From: Deltaproteobacteria bacterium
GTDB taxonomy: Bacteria; Desulfobacterota; GWC2-55-46; UBA9637
Assembly (NCBI GenBank): GCA_016200645.1
Contig: JACQEJ010000028.1
Location: forward strand, 1-33,097
Reading direction: 5' to 3'
Length of the DNA stretch: 33,097 nucleotides
Shown: piece after piece, positions 12,182-25,920 of the stretch
How positions within the stretch are numbered: the stretch's first letter is position 1
How the letters are laid out: each line of letters starts with the position of its first letter
Notes under the pieces: generated by a model
Database searches by the model: none
What the model was told of the DNA's origin: nothing
Seen by the model: the letters and a program-made list of their open reading frames with translations, nothing else
Position numbers and translations under genes: made by a program

Positions 12182-12209
12182 TTGACATGGATTGAGAATT
12201 GAGTATAAT
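12182..12209 (+). promoter_or_regulatory. Near-consensus sigma-70 promoter for the cytochrome operon
   Basis: TTGACA (12182-12187) and TATAAT (12204-12209) are both perfect consensus hexamers, 16 bases apart. Transcription would start near 12216, leaving a leader of roughly 110 bases before the cytochrome gene. Confidence 0.85.
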
Positions 12210-12215
12210 GAAACT

Positions 12216-12320
12216 AAGCTTATCAAGCTTACGGAGACCGATAAGCCGCTTCATAACGCAAAACGGGGTGATGGTGCCTCAGGATTGAGTTTCGATCTTG
12301 AGGTATTTTTTTTTAGGGGT
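12216..12320 (+). promoter_or_regulatory. Structured 5' leader of the cytochrome gene (candidate attenuator or riboswitch)
   Basis: The leader contains a 7-bp stem GCTTATC/GATAAGC (about 12218-12245), then a GC-containing stretch, then a complete intrinsic terminator (12277-12315) just before the ribosome-binding site. A terminator placed here makes sense only if it is conditional. I could not match the upstream part to a known aptamer class. Confidence 0.5.
12277..12315 (+). terminator. Intrinsic terminator in the cytochrome leader
   Basis: CCTCAGGAT and ATCTTGAGG form a 9-bp stem (one G-U pair) with a 9-base loop. TA and nine T residues follow. It ends 5 bases before the start region of the cytochrome gene. 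Confidence 0.75.
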
Positions 12321-12329
12321 ATGGTGAGC

Positions 12330-14417
12330 ATGAGAAGATTTTTACTCCTTTCTGCGATAGCCCTGATATTTGTCGCAGCATATCTATTGACAGATTTAAA
12401 ATCTGTCCCCACAAGCGCCTTTGCCACAGGCAATGCCTATACATCCACAAAACACGGCGGCGGCACAACAGACGGGGCGCTGCCATACGATGCAGGGAAC
12501 GGCCCGGGCGTTGACCGGTCTGTCAACCCGGATTACACGACAAAGTATTATAACAGCGCATCTGCAGGGGCAGGAAAGTATAAAGGCGGCGAGTGCAGCC
12601 AGTGCCATGAGCCCCACGCAAGCTTCGGAGGATATAATGGAGAGCCGCCGCCGAATTCAACTACCGGCGATACAGCCTCAGGGGAATCTGCAACAGAGCC
12701 CTGGCCTAGAAAGAGCCGCACTGGTTTAAATGCCGGCAATACTGGCAGCTGTCTTAACTGCCATACGCCCCACGGAATAAGCGGAAGCGCAAATTATGCC
12801 AATGATGTTGGAACTGCCCCTGCTTCAGGCAATTATAAAGTAACATCCACCACCCCCACGGGCCTCATTCCCCGACAGCTCATAGCATGGGAAGAGGCAT
12901 TGTGCCTGAGATGCCATGACAGCGATGGCCCTGCAACAGCAGGCGGCGCTATTACGACAAACATAAAGGCGGAGGTGGACAACTACCTCGCCACAGCGGG
13001 CAGCGGCCACCCTGTGCGGAGCGACACATATTATGGCAGGCATAACCTTGCCAATGAATCGCAGAATAAGTTGCCTGCAACAGGTTGGTTTACTGCAACC
13101 ACTTCTCACGCAGAATGCACGGACTGTCACAACCCTCACATTGTCAAGGGATATGGCTCAGCCCCGGGGACTTACCCGAACCCTCAGCGGGCCACTGTCT
13201 TCCAGTGGAGCGGCACAACGAGCTTTCAGCCAAACAGGTCTGTCGGAACTTACGGGGTCTATATCAGCCCTGTCAACTTCGGAGTATGGGGAATAACGGT
13301 TACTCAGGGTACAGGCGCCTACGCCTCTACCGTAGCCAACCTTGGCTCCACCAACTATGTCTACGAACTCTGCCTCAAATGCCATTCATACTGGGGGTCG
13401 GGCGACGGCGCCCCTGGAACATACACCAACCAACCCAACTCCCCGTCAACAGTAAGCCCAAAGGCATGGACAGACTCATGGATGCCTGTCAATTATAAAA
13501 TGACGGATCTGGCCGATGAATTCAAGACGAGTAATTACGGATTCCATCCTGTATTCGGTCAAGGGGTAAATACCCCTGAGGCTGCGAGTCTCAGAAACCC
13601 CAACTGGTGTAATGAGGGAACAGCTGCCTATGGCGGTAGCTGCACCAGCAAGGCAGGTGATAGGAGCGATTTATTCACTGCCCCGCCTTTTGCCAATGCG
13701 GCTCAGACCCTTTCCGAAAACTTTGTCCCGCCGTGGAACCATAAATCATTTATTACATGCGTTGACTGCCATGAGGCGGAAAATGTGGATGCGGCCGGCG
13801 CCATTGCCAGGGGACCCCACGGCTCTGCAAGGCCCTTTATCCTGAGGCAGTCAGATTCAAACATCTCCTATACTATCTGCGCTACCGCAGGCACAACTTC
13901 AGCGTGCGGCAGTACAACTTCCTATAGCTACGCCACTGTCCCCGGCGCTACTCCAAACTTCTGTCTCAACTGCCATAGGGTGGATGTCTATAGCTGCATG
14001 GGTTGTTACGGCGCTTCGCATGTAGCTACCTATAACAGCTTTGCCAGACAACCACACCCCCCGGACCCTGGCCGAAACTCCTTTGATACCAATCCCAACG
14101 GCAATCCTCCGCCCAGAGGGATTACCTGTCTATTCTGTCACGGCGGAGGGCTTAAAAGCGATGGCACAACAAAGCTTGGCACCATCCATGGAAGCAATGA
14201 GGGTGTTGGACCAAATGGAACCAGCGCCAGGGGTAAGCGCCTCCTTACGGGTGTTGCATGGAAGGGGGTTACAAGGAGCACAACTACTGCAGCGGGGAGT
14301 TGTTGGTTTGGCGCTTCCGGAGCAGGCACCCTCAATGGATGCACCCAGCATGGCAATGGTTTTACAGGAGCCATGAATGCTGCCGCAAATTATAATTATG
14401 ACCCAGGGCCTCCATAA
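12330..14417 (+). CDS. Exported multiheme c-type cytochrome (8 CXXCH plus one CXXCY)
   Basis: From the ATG at 12330 the product is 695 residues. It opens with a signal peptide MRRFLLLSAIALIFVAAYLL and a likely cut after SAFA. Heme-binding CXXCH motifs start at about residues 89, 141, 192, 263, 348, 477, 545 and 600. A ninth site at 556 reads CMGCY. Several motifs are followed by a PH pair (CSQCHEPH, CLNCHTPH, CTDCHNPH), typical of the doubled-CXXCH group seen in metal-reducer electron-transfer cytochromes. Start choice is uncertain: a GTG at 12324 is better spaced from AGGGG. An upstream frame to 12192 is ruled out because it overlaps the promoter. ResB/CcsA downstream would attach the hemes. 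Confidence 0.92.
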   Translation: MRRFLLLSAIALIFVAAYLLTDLKSVPTSAFATGNAYTSTKHGGGTTDGALPYDAGNGPGVDRSVNPDYTTKYYNSASAGAGKYKGGECSQCHEPHASFGGYNGEPPPNSTTGDTASGESATEPWPRKSRTGLNAGNTGSCLNCHTPHGISGSANYANDVGTAPASGNYKVTSTTPTGLIPRQLIAWEEALCLRCHDSDGPATAGGAITTNIKAEVDNYLATAGSGHPVRSDTYYGRHNLANESQNKLPATGWFTATTSHAECTDCHNPHIVKGYGSAPGTYPNPQRATVFQWSGTTSFQPNRSVGTYGVYISPVNFGVWGITVTQGTGAYASTVANLGSTNYVYELCLKCHSYWGSGDGAPGTYTNQPNSPSTVSPKAWTDSWMPVNYKMTDLADEFKTSNYGFHPVFGQGVNTPEAASLRNPNWCNEGTAAYGGSCTSKAGDRSDLFTAPPFANAAQTLSENFVPPWNHKSFITCVDCHEAENVDAAGAIARGPHGSARPFILRQSDSNISYTICATAGTTSACGSTTSYSYATVPGATPNFCLNCHRVDVYSCMGCYGASHVATYNSFARQPHPPDPGRNSFDTNPNGNPPPRGITCLFCHGGGLKSDGTTKLGTIHGSNEGVGPNGTSARGKRLLTGVAWKGVTRSTTTAAGSCWFGASGAGTLNGCTQHGNGFTGAMNAAANYNYDPGPP

Positions 14418-16183: not shown

Positions 16184-17218
16184 ATGAAGTTTTTCAGGTT
16201 CCTGGCATCACGGGGATTCGCTGTATTCCTCCTCGTCATCTCTACAGCCCTTCTCATTATCTGGAATAAATATCATGGCATTTACCATCCTCTCTTTCTC
16301 GTTATCCCTGCCTTTCTCTTTATCAGTATATCATTTTGTGTTGGAAGGAGAGCAGCTGCTGCTGATGCAAGGCGGAATGTGAGGTTTTTGGGGTCAATGA
16401 TATTTCATACAGGGATGCTGGTTATTATTGCATCCGCATCCCTCAGTCACCTCACGCGGTTCTTTGCCGCTGTTGTCCTCCCTCAGGGGATGCAGGTGGG
16501 CTTTGATAATAAGAACTTTTCTACTATATATGAGGAGCCATTGGGACTCAAAGACAGGCCGTTTGTGAATCTTAGACTGGACAACTATGAAGCGGTCTAT
16601 GCAGATGAAAGATTCCCCGTCAAATACTCCTCTGACATCAGTATCGGCATCATGGAAGACAATGCCTACCATACTGTAAAGGAGAGGATAGAAATAAACC
16701 GCCCGTTTCATTATAATGGCTACACCCTTCTTCTTGAGACAGCCAGGTATTCTCCCCGTTTTATTCTAAGGGATAGAGAGGGGAAAGCGCTCTTTGATGG
16801 TTTTATCAATCTTGCAAACATGACCGAGAATGAGGATGTATTCTCTATAAAAGAAGCCGGCCTCACACTCTATACCAGATTCTTCCCTGATATGTTTAGA
16901 GAAGGAAACAAGGTTGGGACCCGCTCGCCTGTTCTAAAAAATCCTGCCTTCGGCATAAAGATAGTAAAGAGAGACAACCCCTTTGCTGATATATGGAAAG
17001 GGGTGCTGAAGAAAGGGGAGGCCGCGAGGTTTGAGGATATGACCCTTGAATTTGCAGATTTGAAACCCTATGTCGTTATCCAGATTGTAAAGGATCCCAC
17101 ATACTGGGGGATTTTTACCGGCTGGATATTTATCATCGTTGGGCTCGTGATTCGATATGCGCCTGTGGCGCAGGAGAGGATGAAGGTGAGTTCAGACACG
17201 CATGGGGAGGGGATATGA
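16184..17218 (+). CDS. resB: Cytochrome c biogenesis protein ResB (Ccs1)
   Basis: ResB works with CcsA to move heme across the inner membrane and attach it to apocytochromes (System II). The 344-residue protein has N-terminal membrane helices (about 12-30, 35-52 and 65-82), a long extracytoplasmic part, and a last helix near 310-330 (WGIFTGWIFIIVGLVIRY). That is the usual ResB topology, although shorter than many ResB proteins. It overlaps ccsA by 4 bases. No clear ribosome-binding site precedes the ATG at 16184. Confidence 0.85.
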   Translation: MKFFRFLASRGFAVFLLVISTALLIIWNKYHGIYHPLFLVIPAFLFISISFCVGRRAAAADARRNVRFLGSMIFHTGMLVIIASASLSHLTRFFAAVVLPQGMQVGFDNKNFSTIYEEPLGLKDRPFVNLRLDNYEAVYADERFPVKYSSDISIGIMEDNAYHTVKERIEINRPFHYNGYTLLLETARYSPRFILRDREGKALFDGFINLANMTENEDVFSIKEAGLTLYTRFFPDMFREGNKVGTRSPVLKNPAFGIKIVKRDNPFADIWKGVLKKGEAARFEDMTLEFADLKPYVVIQIVKDPTYWGIFTGWIFIIVGLVIRYAPVAQERMKVSSDTHGEGI

Positions 17219-18057
17219 GATTCCTTGAAGGCATATTCCTCTGGTCAGCGATTGCATTCTATCTCTTTTCATTTCTTTTCTTCCTGAGCAGCATTGTTTT
17301 TAAGAAGGAAAGACAACTTCACCGGGCATGGGTGGGTTCTGTTATCGGCCTCGGCCTGCATACTTTAGCAATCCTTGTGAGGTGGATTGCCTCAGGCCAT
17401 CCTCCTGTTTATGGGAGTTTTGAGCACGCATTTGCAGGGAGTTGGTTTATTATGGTGATATTTTTTATTATCAGCGGACGATTCAAGCAGTTAAAGGCAG
17501 CAGGCGCTATCGTAGCCCCCTTTGTGCTGCTCATGCTGGGCTACGGCATCATGGGGCAGAGACTCGATATAGAGCCGCTTACGCCGCCGTATCAGAGCAA
17601 CTGGCTCTGGGTGCATGTAACATTTGCATGGATTGCATACGGCTCATATCATGTGGCAGCAGGGCTGGCTATCATGTATTTGTTGAAAGAAAGGGCGCTG
17701 CGGACAATGAAAACCGGGGAGAGGCTTTCCCGATTGTATCAGTTTTTTCCTGACCTGCCGGTGTTGGATGACCTGATCTTTAAATTGATAGTCTACGGCT
17801 TTATCGCCCACATCGTCATGCTGGGCGCTGGCGCCTTATGGGCATACGGCCTATGGGGGAGATACTGGGCATGGGACCCTATTGAGACATGGAGCCTTAT
17901 AACATGGCTCGTGTATGGCGTGAACATACACCTGAGGGTTACCTACCAGTGGAACGGCGCAAGAGGGGCGTGGCTTGCAATTATCTCCCTCATCGGTATA
18001 CTAATTACCTTTGGAGGCATCGGCTTTGTGGGAGGCGTGCATACGCCGCTTTTATAG
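17215..18057 (+). CDS. ccsA: Cytochrome c biogenesis protein CcsA (ResC)
   Basis: This 280-residue membrane protein has about eight helices and the tryptophan-rich heme-handling WWD domain, GRYWAWDPIETWSLITWL (W218-D221 region). Conserved histidines such as HVTFAWIAYGSYH and the later FIAHIVML fit the CcsA heme ligands. With ResB it forms the System II synthetase, which needs reduced apocytochrome on the outer face. The start overlaps the resB stop (ATGA). Its likely client is the multiheme cytochrome upstream. Confidence 0.93.
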   Translation: MRFLEGIFLWSAIAFYLFSFLFFLSSIVFKKERQLHRAWVGSVIGLGLHTLAILVRWIASGHPPVYGSFEHAFAGSWFIMVIFFIISGRFKQLKAAGAIVAPFVLLMLGYGIMGQRLDIEPLTPPYQSNWLWVHVTFAWIAYGSYHVAAGLAIMYLLKERALRTMKTGERLSRLYQFFPDLPVLDDLIFKLIVYGFIAHIVMLGAGALWAYGLWGRYWAWDPIETWSLITWLVYGVNIHLRVTYQWNGARGAWLAIISLIGILITFGGIGFVGGVHTPLL

Positions 18058-18992: not shown

Positions 18993-19523
18993 ATGAAGAA
19001 AAAGCATATCATGGACGCAAAAGGCATAGAAAGGGCGCTGACAAGGATAGCGCACGAGATTATTGAAAAGAATAAGGGCGTTGAAGATATCGTCATCCTC
19101 GGCATCCCGACCCGCGGTGTCCATATTGCGAGGAGATTAAGCCATATATTCAAAACCATAGAAGGCGCTGCCCTGCCGGTCGGCAGCGTTGATGCAACGC
19201 TTTACCGGGATGATATCGGCATGAAGGAGGTGCAGCCGGCTTTGAAGCGAACAGATATCCCTGTTCCCATTGATAACAAAAAGGTTATTATTGTTGATGA
19301 TGTGCTCTTTACCGGGAGGACAATCAGGGCTGCCATGAATGTGATCATAGACTTTGGAAGACCCGCCAATATTCAACTGGCCGTCTTGATTGATAGGGGA
19401 CACAGGGAGCTTCCCATAAGAGCTGATTATGTAGGCAAAAATGCGCCCACATCTATGCAGGAAAAGGTGAAGGTGCATTTGAAGGAGACGGATGGTGTGG
19501 ATGAGGTAGTTGTGGAGGAGTAG
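18993..19523 (+). CDS. pyrR: PyrR regulator / uracil phosphoribosyltransferase
   Basis: PyrR senses UMP and binds pyr leader RNA to favour termination; many also have weak uracil phosphoribosyltransferase activity. The product is 176 residues, normal for the family. It has the [15 protein letters not shown] segment (36-50), [10 protein letters not shown] (65-74), and the PRPP loop [13 protein letters not shown] (98-110). A GAAGGGG site precedes the ATG. The attenuator directly upstream fits autoregulation. It heads pyrR-pyrB-pyrC. Confidence 0.95.
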
Positions 19524-19590
19524 GGGCGAATCTTGTATTCGCCCCTGTCTCGTATTCGCCCGAACGGGCGATCACAAGGATCGCCCCTAC
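19521..19590. repeat. Composite palindrome between pyrR and pyrB
   Basis: The first hairpin is GGGGCGAAT/ATTCGCCCC (19523-19545, loop CTTGT). The second is GGGCGATC/GATCGCCC (loop ACAAG, the complement of the first loop). Outer ends TAGGGGCGA and TCGCCCCTA match the 9034 palindrome family. It starts on the pyrR stop codon and ends 15 bases before pyrB. Confidence 0.8.
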
Positions 19591-19604
19591 AACACAGAGA
19601 CAAT

Positions 19605-20531
19605 ATGCGCTTGAAAAGAAAAGACATACTGGCCATCGAGGAATTGACCAAAGATGAGATAGAACTCATCTTATCCACCGCCGAATCTTTCAAAGAAGTA
19701 TCTGAAAGGGAGATTAAAAAGGTTCCGACGCTGAGAGGCAGGACTATCATAAATCTTTTCTATGAGCCGTCCACAAGGACGAGGACATCGTTTGAGATTG
19801 CCGCCAAGAGGATGAGCGCGGACGCCATCAATATCTCCACATCATCCAGCAGCGTTGTCAAAGGCGAAACATTAAAGGATACCGCAAGAAACCTTGAGGC
19901 AATGAACCCGGACTGCATTGTTTTGAGGCACCCTTCCAGCGGCGCGCCTGAAATGCTGGCAAGGCTTGTAAGATGTTCTGTGATAAATGCAGGCGACGGC
20001 AGCCATGAACATCCGAGCCAGGCGCTCCTTGACCTATTAACTGTCAAAGAAAGATTCGGCAGAATAGCGGGGTTGAAGATTGCGATAGCGGGCGACATTG
20101 CTCATTCAAGGGTTGCCAGGAGCAATATCCACGGTTTTGCAAAACTTGGCGCAGAGGTAAGTATTGCCGGGCCGCCAACTATGATGCCGTCTGAAATTGA
20201 AAAGATGGGATGCAAAATGTTTTACAAAGTAGAAGACGCAATAAGAGATGCGCATGTTATCATGGTGTTAAGGATTCAATTGGAAAGACAGAAGACCGGC
20301 CTCTTCCCGACAGCAAGGGAATATTCAAAACTGTTTGCTCTGGATTCCAAAAAACTTGAACATGCAGCAAAGGATGTTGTTATACTCCATCCAGGGCCGA
20401 TAAACAGAGGTATCGAAATTTCATCCGATGTTGCGGATGGAAAGTATTCGCTTATACTTGAACAGGTGAAAAACGGCGTAGCTGTGAGGATGGCGCTGTT
20501 TTACTTGCTCATGGGAGGGTCTCGTGAATAG
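19605..20531 (+). CDS. pyrB: Aspartate carbamoyltransferase catalytic subunit
   Basis: PyrB joins carbamoyl phosphate and aspartate in the second step of UMP synthesis. The product is 308 residues from ATG 19605, the usual catalytic-chain length. The carbamoyl-phosphate site [11 protein letters not shown], the [11 protein letters not shown] loop and the C-terminal [11 protein letters not shown] are present. A longer frame from 19533 would translate the palindromic repeat and is rejected. The ribosome-binding site is weak, perhaps because the repeat sits there. The stop overlaps pyrC by 8 bases. Confidence 0.96.
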
Positions 20532-21819
20532 ACTCTTGATCAAAGGCGGAAGGGTAATTGACCCTGCAAGCGGGATTGACGGTCTGTTTGATGTGTATGC
20601 AGTCGGCGGGAAAATTGCCGCTGTAAAACCGTATGAGCCTTCAGCCTTCAGCCTTCAGCCTAATGATTGGACTGTCATAGATGCGGCAGGCCTTGTTATC
20701 TGCCCCGGATTTATTGATATGCATACGCATTTAAGGGAGCCTGGATATGAATATAAGGAGACTGTTCAGACAGGCGCCATGGCAGCGGCAGCAGGGGGTT
20801 TTACATCCGTTGCGTGCATGGCAAACACAAACCCTGTAAATGACAATGCCTCTGTCACACGATACATTCTTAAAAAGGCTCAAGAAGAGGGGATTGTCAA
20901 TGTTTTCCCGGTTGGCGCCATAAGCAGTGGATTAAAAGGCGAAACCCTGGCGGAGATAGGAGAATTGAAAGAGGCTGGATGCATTGCGATCTCTGATGAT
21001 GGAAGGCCTATTGTCAGCAGCGGCCTTATGAGATTGGCGCTGGAATATGCAAAACCATTTAACCTTCCGGTGATAAGCCACTGTGAAGATGCCTGGCTTG
21101 CAATAGATGGCGTAATGAATGAAGGTTTTATATCAACAAAACTCGGACTCAAAGGCATTCCAAATGCCAAAGAAGATATTATGGTTGCAAGAGATATTGC
21201 GCTGGCGGAACTTACAGGAGGGAGATTGCATATTGCCCATATCAGCACAAAGGGGGCCGTCCAACTTGTAAGGAACGCAAAGCAAAATGGATTGAATGTT
21301 ACGGCAGAGGTTACGCCGCATCATTTTACCCTGACAGACGAGGCAGTAATAGGGTATAATACGAATGCAAAGATGAATCCGCCGCTTAGAACAAAGAAGG
21401 ATATTGACGCCATAAAGACAGGCTTGCAGGACGGGACAATAGATGCAATTGCAACAGACCACGCGCCGCAGAATAGCGATGAGAAGGATGTGGAATTTGA
21501 CAAGGCTGCCAACGGCATTGTGGGTCTGGAGACTGCGCTGCCGTTATCACTGCGGCTTGTTGCCGAAGGGGTGATGTCATTCAATACCCTGATTGAAAAA
21601 TTGTCTACAAATCCGGCAAAACTCCTCGGCCTTGATAGTAAAGGATCATTAAAGGTAGGCGCTGATGCGGATATAACCATTGTTGATTTGAACAAGGAAT
21701 GGGTTGTGGATGCCAAAGAATTAAAATCAAAAAGCAGGAATACGCCGTTTGACGGATGGAAGATGAAGGGAAGGGTTGTGAAGACCATTGTGAGCGGGAA
21801 GGTAGTGTATGAAGAATGA
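20524..21819 (+). CDS. pyrC: Dihydroorotase
   Basis: PyrC cyclises carbamoyl aspartate to dihydroorotate. This is the 431-residue class I type. Metal ligands are in [10 protein letters not shown] (His67, His69), and later blocks are [20 protein letters not shown] and IATDHAPQN. The GTG at 20524 overlaps pyrB. Residues 39-46 (PSAFSLQP) come from three in-frame copies of the heptamer CCTTCAG (20638-20661), an insertion in the N-terminal beta part before [13 protein letters not shown]. Confidence 0.96.
20638..20661 (+). repeat. Heptamer CCTTCAG x3 inside pyrC
   Basis: Three perfect copies of a 7-base unit plus CCT. Because 7 is not a multiple of 3, the same unit is read in all three phases, and three copies (21 bases) keep the gene in frame. 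Confidence 0.9.
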
Positions 21820-22276
21820 AATGATAAGGCTTTTACAGCCATATTTTGAGAAAAGAGATGACATTGTTATGGCCTTTATCTTCGGTTCATGGGCCTGCGA
21901 TAAAGGCGGGATGGAATCGGACGTTGATGTGGCAGTTTATTTCAAACCGAAAACAGGCAGGCTTGAATGGGAAGATGCTGATGCGAGATATGATGGGGAA
22001 ACTGTTTTATGGCGTGAAATAGAGGGGCTTCTGGGAAGGGAGGTTGATATGCTGGTTCTCAACAGGGCTGCATCGGGCATTGCTGAAAGCGCCATAAGCG
22101 GTATGCCTGTTATTATAAAGGACAGGGACTTGTATATGGACTTTATGATGAAGGTAACATCCGAGGCTGCGGACTACAGGGAATTTGTTATGAGCTACTG
22201 GAAATTGAAAGAGGAGATGAGGGCGAGAAAAAATGAAAGCAAAAGTTTATATCACTCTGAAAAAAGGGGTGCTTGA
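21809..22276 (+). CDS. MNT-type nucleotidyltransferase (MntA-like) without a HEPN partner
   Basis: This 155-residue protein has the minimal nucleotidyltransferase motif GSW (26-28) followed by SDVDVAVYF (metal-binding Asp38 and Asp40). The C-terminal part [17 protein letters not shown]...[11 protein letters not shown] is usual for MntA antitoxins, which AMPylate HEPN toxins. No HEPN gene lies next to it. It overlaps pyrC by 11 bases and purS by 44 bases, so it is embedded in the nucleotide operon. It may have lost its toxin or have another substrate. The long overlap with purS could mean that its last residues are not essential. Confidence 0.85.
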
Positions 22277-22472
22277 TCCCCAGGGCAAGGCTGTGGCCAA
22301 TGCGCTGGAGTCTATGGGCTATAATGAGGTTAAGGGCTTGCGCATAGGCAAATTTATAGAAATAGAGCTTGACAGCGCATCTAAAAAAGATGCAGAGAAA
22401 CGGCTTAAAGAGATGTGCGAGAAACTTCTGGCAAATACTGTTGTTGAAGATTACAGGGTGGAGATTGAATGA
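22233..22472 (+). CDS. purS: FGAM synthase subunit PurS
   Basis: PurS is the small subunit that links PurQ and PurL in the three-part FGAM synthetase. The product is 79 residues, typical. Its opening [18 protein letters not shown] and [13 protein letters not shown] are family blocks. It starts inside the nucleotidyltransferase gene and overlaps purQ by 4 bases. The purL gene is not in the window. Confidence 0.95.
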
Positions 22473-23149
22473 AATTCGGCATTGTTGTATTTCCCGGTTC
22501 AAACTGCGACCATGACTGTTATCATGCGGCAAGGCATGTATTTAATCAGGAGGCGGAATATGTTTGGCACAAGGAGACAAGTCTCAAGGGATTTGACTGC
22601 ATTATCCTCCCCGGCGGCTTTTCTTACGGCGATTATCTGCGGACAGGCGCCATTGCGCGGTTTTCTCCGATAATGAACGAGGTCGTCTCTTATGCAAAAA
22701 AAGGCGGTCTTGTGATGGGGATATGCAACGGGTTTCAGATACTCGCCGAGGCAGGGCTTTTGCCGGGCGTTCTGATGAGAAACAAGTCGCTCAAGTTCAT
22801 CTGCAAAAATATTCATCTGCGGGTGGAAAATAACCGGACGCTTTTTACCAAGGCATATCAAAAAAATCAGGCGCTGACGATTCCAATCGCCCATGCGGAC
22901 GGAAATTATTTTGCGGATGCGGATACGATCAAAAAGCTGGAAGATAACGATCGAATCGTTTTCCGCTATTCCACTGCTGACGGCAAAATCACCGACGATG
23001 TCAATCCGAACGGCTCTGTCAATAATATCGCAGGGATCATCAATGAAAGCGGCAATGTGTTCGGAACCATGCCTCACCCTGAAAGGGTCGTAGAATCTAT
23101 CCTCGGCGGCGAAGATGGGAGAGGGGTTTTTGATTCAATTACGAATTAA
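22469..23149 (+). CDS. purQ: FGAM synthase glutaminase subunit PurQ
   Basis: PurQ releases ammonia from glutamine for FGAM synthesis. The 226-residue class I amidotransferase has the nucleophile Cys86 in GICNGFQ. It also has FPGSNCDHD near the start, [18 protein letters not shown], and the catalytic His-Glu pair in MPHPERVVE. Its last residues and the stop codon (ITN-stop) are part of a 7-nt repeat array (23137-23164), so the repeat has supplied the gene end. Confidence 0.95.
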
Positions 23150-23214: not shown

Positions 23215-25920
23215 ATGCCAACCTACTATACTTTCATAAAAGAAAGGCTCGACCTTTTTGATGGTATTCTGCAAAAGGGGTTTGACATTACAACCGGCAG
23301 GTTGTGGATGATGGAGCCTGCGCATATCAGATTTCACCTGGGTGAATCCATAAAGGATTTAAAGATACCGTATGCCTTTGGCGGGGAAGCTGAAGACATA
23401 GTGGAAAAATCCATTCTTGCGTTGGCAGCGCTTTTAAAAAGGCGACTGGAACCTGGCGCGGAACAGAATGTTACGGCAAGCCTTCTTGATATAAAAGCAA
23501 CGCTCATCGAAAAAACATACCGCATAGATTTCTTCCTGCCGGGTTCCGTGGAAAAAGATATTGCCTGCGGCATATTAACCGCCGCATCAGTTATAGACAG
23601 CGGCATATTAAAGGCATGGCTTGCCCCCGACGGTTACGGCAGGGCGTATTATTCGCTGGTGAAAGGGATATTGGAAAAGGCTGTATTGGAAGAGACGCGG
23701 TTGGAAGGGGTGGAAAGAACCTCCCTTCTTGCGATTATGGCCATTGTGAATTTATGCAGAAAGAAAAAAGAGGAGATCATCGGAAACACTAAGATAAAAG
23801 GTTTGAGCTATGACCGGTTGGATCAGGCCGCGGGGCTTGTTATGTATTTTGTTTTTAAGGCGGCTGTGAAGAATGTGGCGGCTGAATTGGCGCAGATAAT
23901 GAATGCGCACGGCGGCGCGGCGGCGCAGGACATTTTTGAGACATGGTTTACCCCCCGCAGTTTCCTGACTATTCAGGGAAATATTATTTCAAGCGATCTA
24001 AATCCGTACGGTTTGCAGGAGAATATCGCTTCTCTGCTCCGGACAAGCTACGACAGCGCGGCGGCAAAGGCCGGGGATGCCGCCGGTATAGCCGCCCTGA
24101 TGGAAGAGGAGATAAGAAAACATTCCGACGTAGAAGCGCTGTTTCATTTTTCACGGATAAACCATTTAAGACGGCTTATCGGAGATTATCTTTTGGATTA
24201 CGATACCCCGCAGATAGAGGTCAATGTCCGATTGGCGGAGATGTATGTTGACAACAGATTCATCCAGCCTTTGTTTGATGATTCGAAGGCTGCGGCGAAA
24301 TTGAATCAGGGTTTGGACGGCGTAAAAGAACAGTTCCAGAAAGATGCGGCGCGGATAGAAAAGATAGATGCGCTGCAGGATTTTATTGCGTCAATCAAAA
24401 GGGGCTCTTTAGGCGGCTGGCTGGGAATAGGCAAGAAAAAGGATGCGGTCATTACAGAGATAATCGGGGCATATATTGCGTATCGGTTTGATGAATATGT
24501 GGAAAAGTTTGTTAGCTCCATGCGGGAGGTTATGGTTGACAGGCGCGCGGAATTTGCCCCAGACACGTTGAAGATGGAATATGAAAGGGGTAGGGTCTAT
24601 CGGTTTTCTACCGATGAAAAGCCGGTTTTGAAGGAGATGGATATCGAGGCCGAAGGGCATCTCTTCATAGATATGAAGGATTTTACCAAGAAGACGCTCA
24701 AGGCCAAGGAGATTGCCATGGCCGATTTTATGGAGTCAAATTTCTACAAACCCATATTAAGCGCCGCCGGCAGATATGGTTCGTCAGCCGCAGGCCTGAG
24801 GGATAATAAAAACAGCATACGGCTGAATAACCTGCTCGGCGATGCGATTATTTTCTCCGGCGGCATTACGAATCTGATCGCCCTTACCGGCGATATACGG
24901 CGGGTTATGAAGAGATATAAGGAGCAGCTTGAAAAAAGAATTCCCCATATTGTAGAAGAGGAACTGCTCAGCAATATCCACAAAAATTTTGAGGCAATGA
25001 AAGAGGAGATTGGCAGGGAGCGCGCGAAGATGGAAAAAGCGATTGCCGCGGGAGAGAAGGGATTGGAGGCATCGTTGGTGGAATTAAGAGAAAAGGAATA
25101 TAGATTGGAAAAAACATACAAAGAGGAGTTGGAGGCCGCCATAGGCCAGGAGATGGAGGCGGGTCTCTTTATTACCTATGGCAGCGAGGCCGAGGTCATT
25201 CTCATGAAGGATAATTTCTGGGGCGAGGTAAAAGTGGCGATAGGAGAGAAGATTAATGAGGCAGCCAGAGGAACTTCCAGAAGCTCTATTGTATGGGCAA
25301 AGATGGAGAGGCTGCTTGAAGAAGAAAGAATGAAGAGGCGCAATCCAAGCCTCAAATATCCGCTTGATATTTATATAGGAAAGACCTATGGTTTTGTTTT
25401 GCCGCCGAGTCTGGATGACCGGCTGGAAAAGATGGTTCTCCATAAAGAGGCAGCCGAGGCAAAAAGCCTGGCACAGCTATTGGCGCAAGAATGTTTTAAT
25501 GACTTTGGCAGGATTATTTCAGGAGAGCCGTTTTCCTCTCTCAGGATATTGAGCGCCGCCAGCGATATTTATAATAAAGGACAGGCATTGAGTGAAGAGG
25601 CATTGCAGGCGTATATGAAAGAGGGCAAAGGAAGGGGCTTCTTTTTTAAACGCGAGGTTCAGGTATCTGAATTGCATAAAGAGATACAAGATGCCTTTTT
25701 CTTTCCCCTTAAGTTGCTGGAATTATGGTTCGCTGTGTTTGCGACAGAGGGAATTAAATATATAGAAGTATTTTGCAAGGCAGGAGAAATCATATTCAGA
25801 GGCTTCGAATCAGCCAGTCCCACCGTTGTCTATGAAATCGTGAATAAAGATTCAGAGTTTTTCAAATTACTCGTGCATAATCACTTTGATACATGGTATG
25901 AAGAGGCGCAAAACAAATAA
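23215..25920 (+). CDS. Large protein with a divergent class III nucleotidyl cyclase-like core
   Basis: This 901-residue soluble protein has no family name I can give. Residues 483-700 match the order of class III cyclase motifs. HLFIDMKDFT has the first metal Asp (486), LLGDAIIFSGG has the second (543), and VAIGEKINEAARGTSR has the transition-state Asn681 and Arg685. The substrate-base Lys position before GD appears replaced (LNNLLGD). The core is split by a coiled-coil insert (about 565-648) rich in E and K. The first 480 residues and last 180 are helical and unrecognised. The ATG at 23215 lacks a ribosome-binding site and follows a repeat hairpin. It converges with the sensor kinase gene, so it may be a signalling enzyme or a degenerate sensor. 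Confidence 0.65.
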   Translation: MPTYYTFIKERLDLFDGILQKGFDITTGRLWMMEPAHIRFHLGESIKDLKIPYAFGGEAEDIVEKSILALAALLKRRLEPGAEQNVTASLLDIKATLIEKTYRIDFFLPGSVEKDIACGILTAASVIDSGILKAWLAPDGYGRAYYSLVKGILEKAVLEETRLEGVERTSLLAIMAIVNLCRKKKEEIIGNTKIKGLSYDRLDQAAGLVMYFVFKAAVKNVAAELAQIMNAHGGAAAQDIFETWFTPRSFLTIQGNIISSDLNPYGLQENIASLLRTSYDSAAAKAGDAAGIAALMEEEIRKHSDVEALFHFSRINHLRRLIGDYLLDYDTPQIEVNVRLAEMYVDNRFIQPLFDDSKAAAKLNQGLDGVKEQFQKDAARIEKIDALQDFIASIKRGSLGGWLGIGKKKDAVITEIIGAYIAYRFDEYVEKFVSSMREVMVDRRAEFAPDTLKMEYERGRVYRFSTDEKPVLKEMDIEAEGHLFIDMKDFTKKTLKAKEIAMADFMESNFYKPILSAAGRYGSSAAGLRDNKNSIRLNNLLGDAIIFSGGITNLIALTGDIRRVMKRYKEQLEKRIPHIVEEELLSNIHKNFEAMKEEIGRERAKMEKAIAAGEKGLEASLVELREKEYRLEKTYKEELEAAIGQEMEAGLFITYGSEAEVILMKDNFWGEVKVAIGEKINEAARGTSRSSIVWAKMERLLEEERMKRRNPSLKYPLDIYIGKTYGFVLPPSLDDRLEKMVLHKEAAEAKSLAQLLAQECFNDFGRIISGEPFSSLRILSAASDIYNKGQALSEEALQAYMKEGKGRGFFFKREVQVSELHKEIQDAFFFPLKLLELWFAVFATEGIKYIEVFCKAGEIIFRGFESASPTVVYEIVNKDSEFFKLLVHNHFDTWYEEAQNK

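Follow-up and report, generated by a model that had tools for sequence, protein, structure and literature searches.

Does a protein that every sequence model misses nevertheless belong to a well-known class of enzymes? This question is raised by a gene for a 901-residue protein on contig JACQEJ010000028.1 (assembly GCA_016200645.1), from a Deltaproteobacteria bacterium of the GTDB lineage Desulfobacterota; GWC2-55-46; UBA9637. We analyzed a stretch of 33,097 nucleotides (positions 1 to 33,097 of the contig), which we call the window. A first-pass annotation, made from the sequence alone, proposed that the protein has a core like that of class III nucleotidyl cyclases, the type of enzyme that produces cAMP and cGMP. 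Residue conservation, profile comparison, and fold searches all bear this out. The protein belongs to a cryptic family that is found across its bacterial class, with a predicted class III cyclase fold, intact catalytic residues, a non-canonical base pocket, and a coiled-coil insertion of variable length. We think it likely that the protein is a soluble class III nucleotidyl cyclase that is active as a dimer, with control exerted by the helical half at its N terminus and by its coiled-coil arm. We found no description of this family.

In direct sequence searches, the window protein had no match in Pfam or NCBIfam and no meaningful match to any sequence in PDB. The Guanylate_cyc profile (PF00211) did not match any family member that we scanned; a match to this profile is an aid to detection and not a property of the enzyme class. 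The sequence searches gave only matches that we rejected as due to chance, such as one to gasdermin via the coiled coil. The reverse strand of the gene has no comparable open frame.

Catalytic residues and profile comparison

We counted conserved residues in an alignment of 51 sequences of the window protein's relatives. The first-pass annotation had placed the two metal aspartates at 486 and 543 and an Asn/Arg pair at 681 and 685, and these four residues are indeed at those positions and are identical in all 51 sequences. In the class III cyclase Rv1625c, the corresponding residues are K296, D300, D365, N372, and R376: the lysine is four residues before the second metal aspartate, the aspartate of the pocket is seven residues before the asparagine, and the arginine is four residues after it (PMC4174876). 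These spacings are reproduced in the family, both for the Asn/Arg pair (+4) and for the two pocket positions, which fall on Asn539 and Val674. Position 862, in the final hairpin's [KR]-G turn, is lysine or arginine in 47 of the 51 sequences. We take it to be the probable equivalent of the phosphate-binding lysine of adenylyl cyclases.

When we ran hhalign with close relatives only, there was no usable cyclase signal. With distant and insert-poor relatives added and the insert removed, the core aligned with class III cyclases of related genomes over 119 columns (P 9.7e-4), and D486, D543, N681, and R685 were all in register with the ordinary cyclases. Five column shuffles of this comparison gave P values of 0.09–0.39. 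The score of a second alignment was 25.2, versus a maximum of 21.8 over 200 column shuffles.

The same comparison bears on whether the protein is a GGDEF-type or other palm-fold nucleotidyltransferase, which would synthesize dinucleotides or polymers. The GGDEF profile aligned with the insert-free core at P 0.017, with a weaker score and in a different register. The family has neither a GGDEF match in Pfam nor the GG[DE]EF motif, and to our knowledge the Asn/Arg pair is not a feature of GGDEF proteins. There was also no GGDEF protein, Cas10, or polymerase among the best 50 PDB matches of the fold search described below. We give this explanation hardly any weight.

Predicted fold

The first-pass annotation had also suggested structure prediction. 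We used AlphaFold2 to model L104, a natural relative with little insertion, with 51 sequences in the alignment. The model is confident (predicted local distance difference test, or pLDDT, of 84.9; pTM 0.81). Each of its best 50 PDB matches was a class III cyclase, with a best E of 1.9e-5 and a probability of 1.00, and 32 of the matches listed had E ≤ 0.001. They include Cya2, CyaC, GC-A, bPAC, Rv1625c, Rv1900c, mammalian adenylyl cyclase, soluble guanylyl cyclase, and a cUMP synthase (7r65). A fold search against a viral library gave four matches with E < 0.01, and two of these were named guanylate cyclase domain proteins.

We compared the family with the known class III cyclases (PF00211, and the structures of Cya2, 2w01; CyaC, 1wc0; and Rv1625c, 4p2f). 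The shared features are the predicted fold, the two metal aspartates, the Asn/Arg pair, the spacing of both pocket positions, and the C-terminal [KR]G hairpin. In contrast to those cyclases, the window family is missed by all sequence models, has Asn/Val in the pocket instead of Lys-Asp/Thr or Glu-Cys, contains two insertions (of about 73 and 115 residues), and has a helical N-terminal half that belongs to no known family. The predicted cyclase family is a divergent new form within a known enzyme class, the class III nucleotidyl cyclases.

A comparable case is the DUF2652 cyclase-like proteins (PMC4886424), another cryptic and unassayed bacterial family that is class III-like and was found by remote comparison. 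Unlike the window protein, these have a single domain of ~250 amino acids, their pocket pairs are Lys-Glu or Glu-Lys/Arg, and the mycobacterial set has isoleucine instead of the asparagine. DUF2652 matched just 1 of 32 family members scanned, and weakly (E 0.013).

The base pocket

The first-pass annotation stated that the base-recognition lysine seemed to be lost, and this is correct: the position is Asn539, with asparagine in 47 sequences and serine in 4. In our alignment, most of the ordinary cyclases from this lineage have lysine and threonine at the two pocket positions. Cyclases that use ATP read the base with Lys-Asp/Thr and those that use GTP with Glu-Cys or similar pairs, and Asn539/Val674 is neither; it fits neither the ATP rule nor the GTP rule that is given for class III base pockets (PMC4215837). 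Because variation of the pocket inside class III is already documented (PMC4215837, PMC11224242), the Asn/Val pocket excludes the canonical adenylyl and guanylyl cyclase subtypes, not class III. The first-pass annotation had suggested that the protein makes an unusual nucleotide or acts as a sensor. Either may be the case: the pocket departs from both textbook rules, and its residues do not identify the substrate.

With the base-reading lysine lost and a non-polar valine as its partner, the protein might instead be a receptor with a cyclase fold that lacks catalysis: the core would bind a nucleoside triphosphate or a cyclic nucleotide and pass a signal through the coiled coil. The large flanking domains and the lack of a pathway in the gene neighborhood would fit with this. 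On the other hand, 47–51 of the 51 sequences retain the pair of metal aspartates, the Asn/Arg pair, and, for the most part, Lys/Arg862 despite deep divergence, which exceeds what binding-only domains usually show. We consider such a receptor to be unlikely.

Pyrimidine cyclases of the Pycsar defense systems (PycC) resemble the window family in having a class III fold and a non-canonical pocket, and the fold matches include the cUMP synthase 7r65, so a cyclase that makes cCMP or cUMP for defense should be considered. However, the published pyrimidine pockets are F100/R142/Q144 for CTP and either F60/K104/F109 or Y50/D94/R97 for UTP (PMC11224242), and Asn539/Val674 differs from all of these sets. 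Also, the gene is nearly universal across the class and single-copy rather than patchy, PADLOC's Pycsar model does not match, and no effector gene adjoins it; the neighbors are pyr and pur genes and a two-component pair. A role of this kind seems very unlikely.

Insertions and domain organization

The first-pass annotation described an 80-residue coiled coil that divides a core at residues 480–700. The coiled coil does divide the core, and some relatives have almost none of it while others have a longer one, but its length is ~73 residues (574–646). The core is at the location given but probably extends further, to the hairpin at 846–876. By itself, the C-terminal slice aligns with ordinary cyclases at 846–876 (P about 0.01). 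The predicted cyclase core is made up of residues 480–573 and 647–728 and probably also 846–876, with the last part after the second insertion (Table 1).

We also considered that residues 719–876 might be a degenerate second cyclase-like domain rather than an insertion, as the order of strands and helices there would allow. The alignment of the C-terminal hairpin and a longer match to Rv1625c (345 columns, TMt 0.59) make an insertion the more probable reading. Within this second insertion, the motif DIYNxGxAlSxxALxAY (residues 779–811, 25549–25647) is conserved as strongly as the active site.

In the model of the window protein, the coiled-coil arm is two helices, at 582–611 and 618–648. A coiled-coil score flagged 580–642, which is a lead only, and the heptad periodicity of mean hydrophobicity was not significant (p about 0.15). 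The first insertion has 13–21 residues in 4 sequences, 71–74 in 37, and 173–174 in 10. The 35 sequences with an insert of 73–74 residues have almost no indels, yet their mean pairwise identity in this region is just 49%. Because the length is fixed while the sequence is freer, these patterns suggest that the first insertion is a rigid arm.

A family member from the window's own order (L099:1486-3972, in genome G053, which is estimated to be 100% complete) lacks the coiled coil as well as the counterpart of the helix at 746–768, both apparently lost.

Table 1. Features of the gene and its protein, with positions in the window.
Feature	Position	Strand	Basis or conservation
Whole gene, class III cyclase-like protein	23215..25920	+	901-residue open reading frame, exact frame bounds; orthologs kept
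Residues 1–450, all-helical N-terminal half	23215..24564	+	Model; mean pairwise identity 42%; no Pfam/PDB match
Residues 455–467, linker EYxRGRLYRFSxD ahead of core	24577..24615	+	Y456, G459, Y462, D467 invariant
Residues 480–573, cyclase strand 1, helices 1–2, strands 2–3, helix 3	24652..24933	+	Models; 70% mean pairwise identity; hhalign register
Asp486, first metal aspartate, in LFxDMKDFT	24670..24672	+	51/51
Asn539, at base-reading Lys/Glu position (second metal Asp −4)	24829..24831	+	47 N, 4 S of 51
Asp543, second metal aspartate, in GDA	24841..24843	+	51/51
Residues 574–646, antiparallel coiled-coil insertion, helix 3-strand 4 loop	24934..25152	+	Model; length classes
Residues 647–728, cyclase strands 4–5, catalytic helix, strand 6	25153..25398	+	hhalign, L104 model
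Val674, second base-reading position (Asn −7)	25234..25236	+	V in 51/51; spacing from PMC4174876
Asn681, ribose-orienting transition-state residue	25255..25257	+	51/51
Arg685, transition-state arginine	25267..25269	+	51/51
Residues 729–845, second insertion with DIYNxGxAlSxxAL	25399..25749	+	Y786, N787, G789, A796, F811 invariant
Residues 846–876, C-terminal hairpin G-E-I-x-F-[KR]-G-F-E...VYEIV, resembling cyclase strands 7–8	25750..25842	+	C-terminal slice alignment

Distribution

In a class-wide search, we found the gene in 53 of the 63 genomes of its bacterial class, and in 39 of the 44 good ones. It is essentially single-copy: where a genome has extra matches, most of them look like fragments of a single split gene. 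Orthologs are about 64–70% identical within the family and 31–50% identical elsewhere in the class. In a sample of 395 genomes from the phylum, 14 further genomes contained the gene, and these were from four distant families. We found no relatives of the window protein in the viral and plasmid collections that we searched. Because a species of the same genus (G057) lacks the gene in a genome that is 99% complete, the gene is not strictly essential.

Gene neighborhood

A compact run of genes, pyrR-pyrB-pyrC-mntA-purS-purQ (18993–23149, + strand), is immediately upstream of the cyclase-like gene. The short purS (22233–22472, 79 amino acids) fell below the length cut of the first list of open reading frames. 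In all six genomes of the window's own family that we compared (the window and five others), pyrR, pyrB, pyrC, and purQ precede the gene. In other families, different genes are upstream and the pyr/pur order is not kept. Because this neighborhood is restricted to the window's own family, a tie to nucleotide synthesis is just a lead.

The neighbor on the other strand had been described as a redox-type two-component pair. It is a two-component pair, and the redox type is only a lead: the kinase matches 6TM_PilS in Pfam, and its score against the redox model ActS/PrrB/RegB, the only near-full-length match among the NCBIfam models listed, is 125 of 350 bits, which is far below the cut-off. A link between the pair and the cyclase-like gene is not supported, as none of the 20 other loci that we compared has the pair close to the gene.

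Several other features of the window are worth recording. The mntA gene (21809–22276, + strand) encodes an orphan MntA-type antitoxin (NCBIfam NF047752), and it overlaps the beginning of purS at its 3' end. In related genomes (L116 and L119), a HepT-like partner of 145 amino acids directly follows the antitoxin gene; this partner is missing from the window. A multihaem cytochrome with paired CXXCH motifs is near ResB and cytochrome c assembly genes (12192–14417 and 16184–18057, both + strand). Near the contig edge, a DNA methylase fragment is beside an AAA ATPase that is AbiEii-like (128–2647, − strand), which might be the remnant of a defense system. Models of defense systems, including Pycsar in PADLOC, gave no relevant match.

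How the protein may work

Several observations weigh against an active cyclase. In the profile comparison, the hhalign probability taken alone is modest (22%), and a longer slice gave a less clear result (an observed score of 28.6, versus a null maximum of 27.6). The fold is transferred from L104, which is only 41% identical to the window protein over the modeled region. The window protein's own model has pLDDT below 50 around the active site (492–500, 644–659, and 677–689), and a fold search with the full-length model gave only helical chance matches. Finally, across the loci compared, there was no conserved neighbor that pointed to a signaling pathway.

Each of the 63 genomes of the class has domains that bind cyclic nucleoside monophosphates, and this is also true of genomes that carry the gene and lack a PF00211 cyclase (for example, G045, G046, and G052). 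Because these domains are in every genome, receptors for a cyclic nucleotide are plausible. This argument is weakened, again to the detriment of the cyclase, because some domains of this kind, of the CRP/FNR types, do not bind cyclic nucleotides.

If the protein is an active cyclase, then by analogy with other class III enzymes it would act as a dimer. Two metals would be held by D486 and D543 from one chain, and N681 and R685 from the other would position the ribose and stabilize the transition state. A nucleoside triphosphate would be closed to the 3',5'-cyclic monophosphate. With Asn539/Val674 in place of the usual base-reading pair, the choice of base would be set in another way or might be relaxed. 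We regard the helical N-terminal half as a probable input domain, with a presumed regulatory role. The coiled-coil arm most likely serves as a lever or for docking, and in this way adjusts the two active sites. Together, they may determine how the two cores are placed relative to each other.

There is a parallel for control at this site. In mammalian adenylyl cyclase, the α1-α2 and α3-β4 loops of C2 form a groove for the switch II helix of Gs-α, and docking in this groove turns C1 towards its activated state (PMC2576301). The coiled-coil arm occupies the helix 3-strand 4 loop, which is the equivalent of one wall of the Gs-α groove. So, the two proteins share this loop as a putative control site, but in mammalian C2 the loop is short and receives a separate G protein, while in the window family a built-in coiled-coil hairpin replaces the loop. 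A bolder reading, which we consider less likely than not, is that this is a lineage-wide family of cyclases that make a cyclic nucleotide without any known base-reading pair, and that a built-in arm of fixed length, in place of contact with a G protein, switches their activity.

If the prediction is right, then a family that sequence searches have missed would join one of the best-known classes of enzymes, and it would be nearly universal in its bacterial class. It would be a natural test case for how a class III cyclase reads the base without the known pairs. It would also be a natural test case for the groove between helix 3 and strand 4 as a general control site, with natural arms of almost none, 73, or 174 residues.
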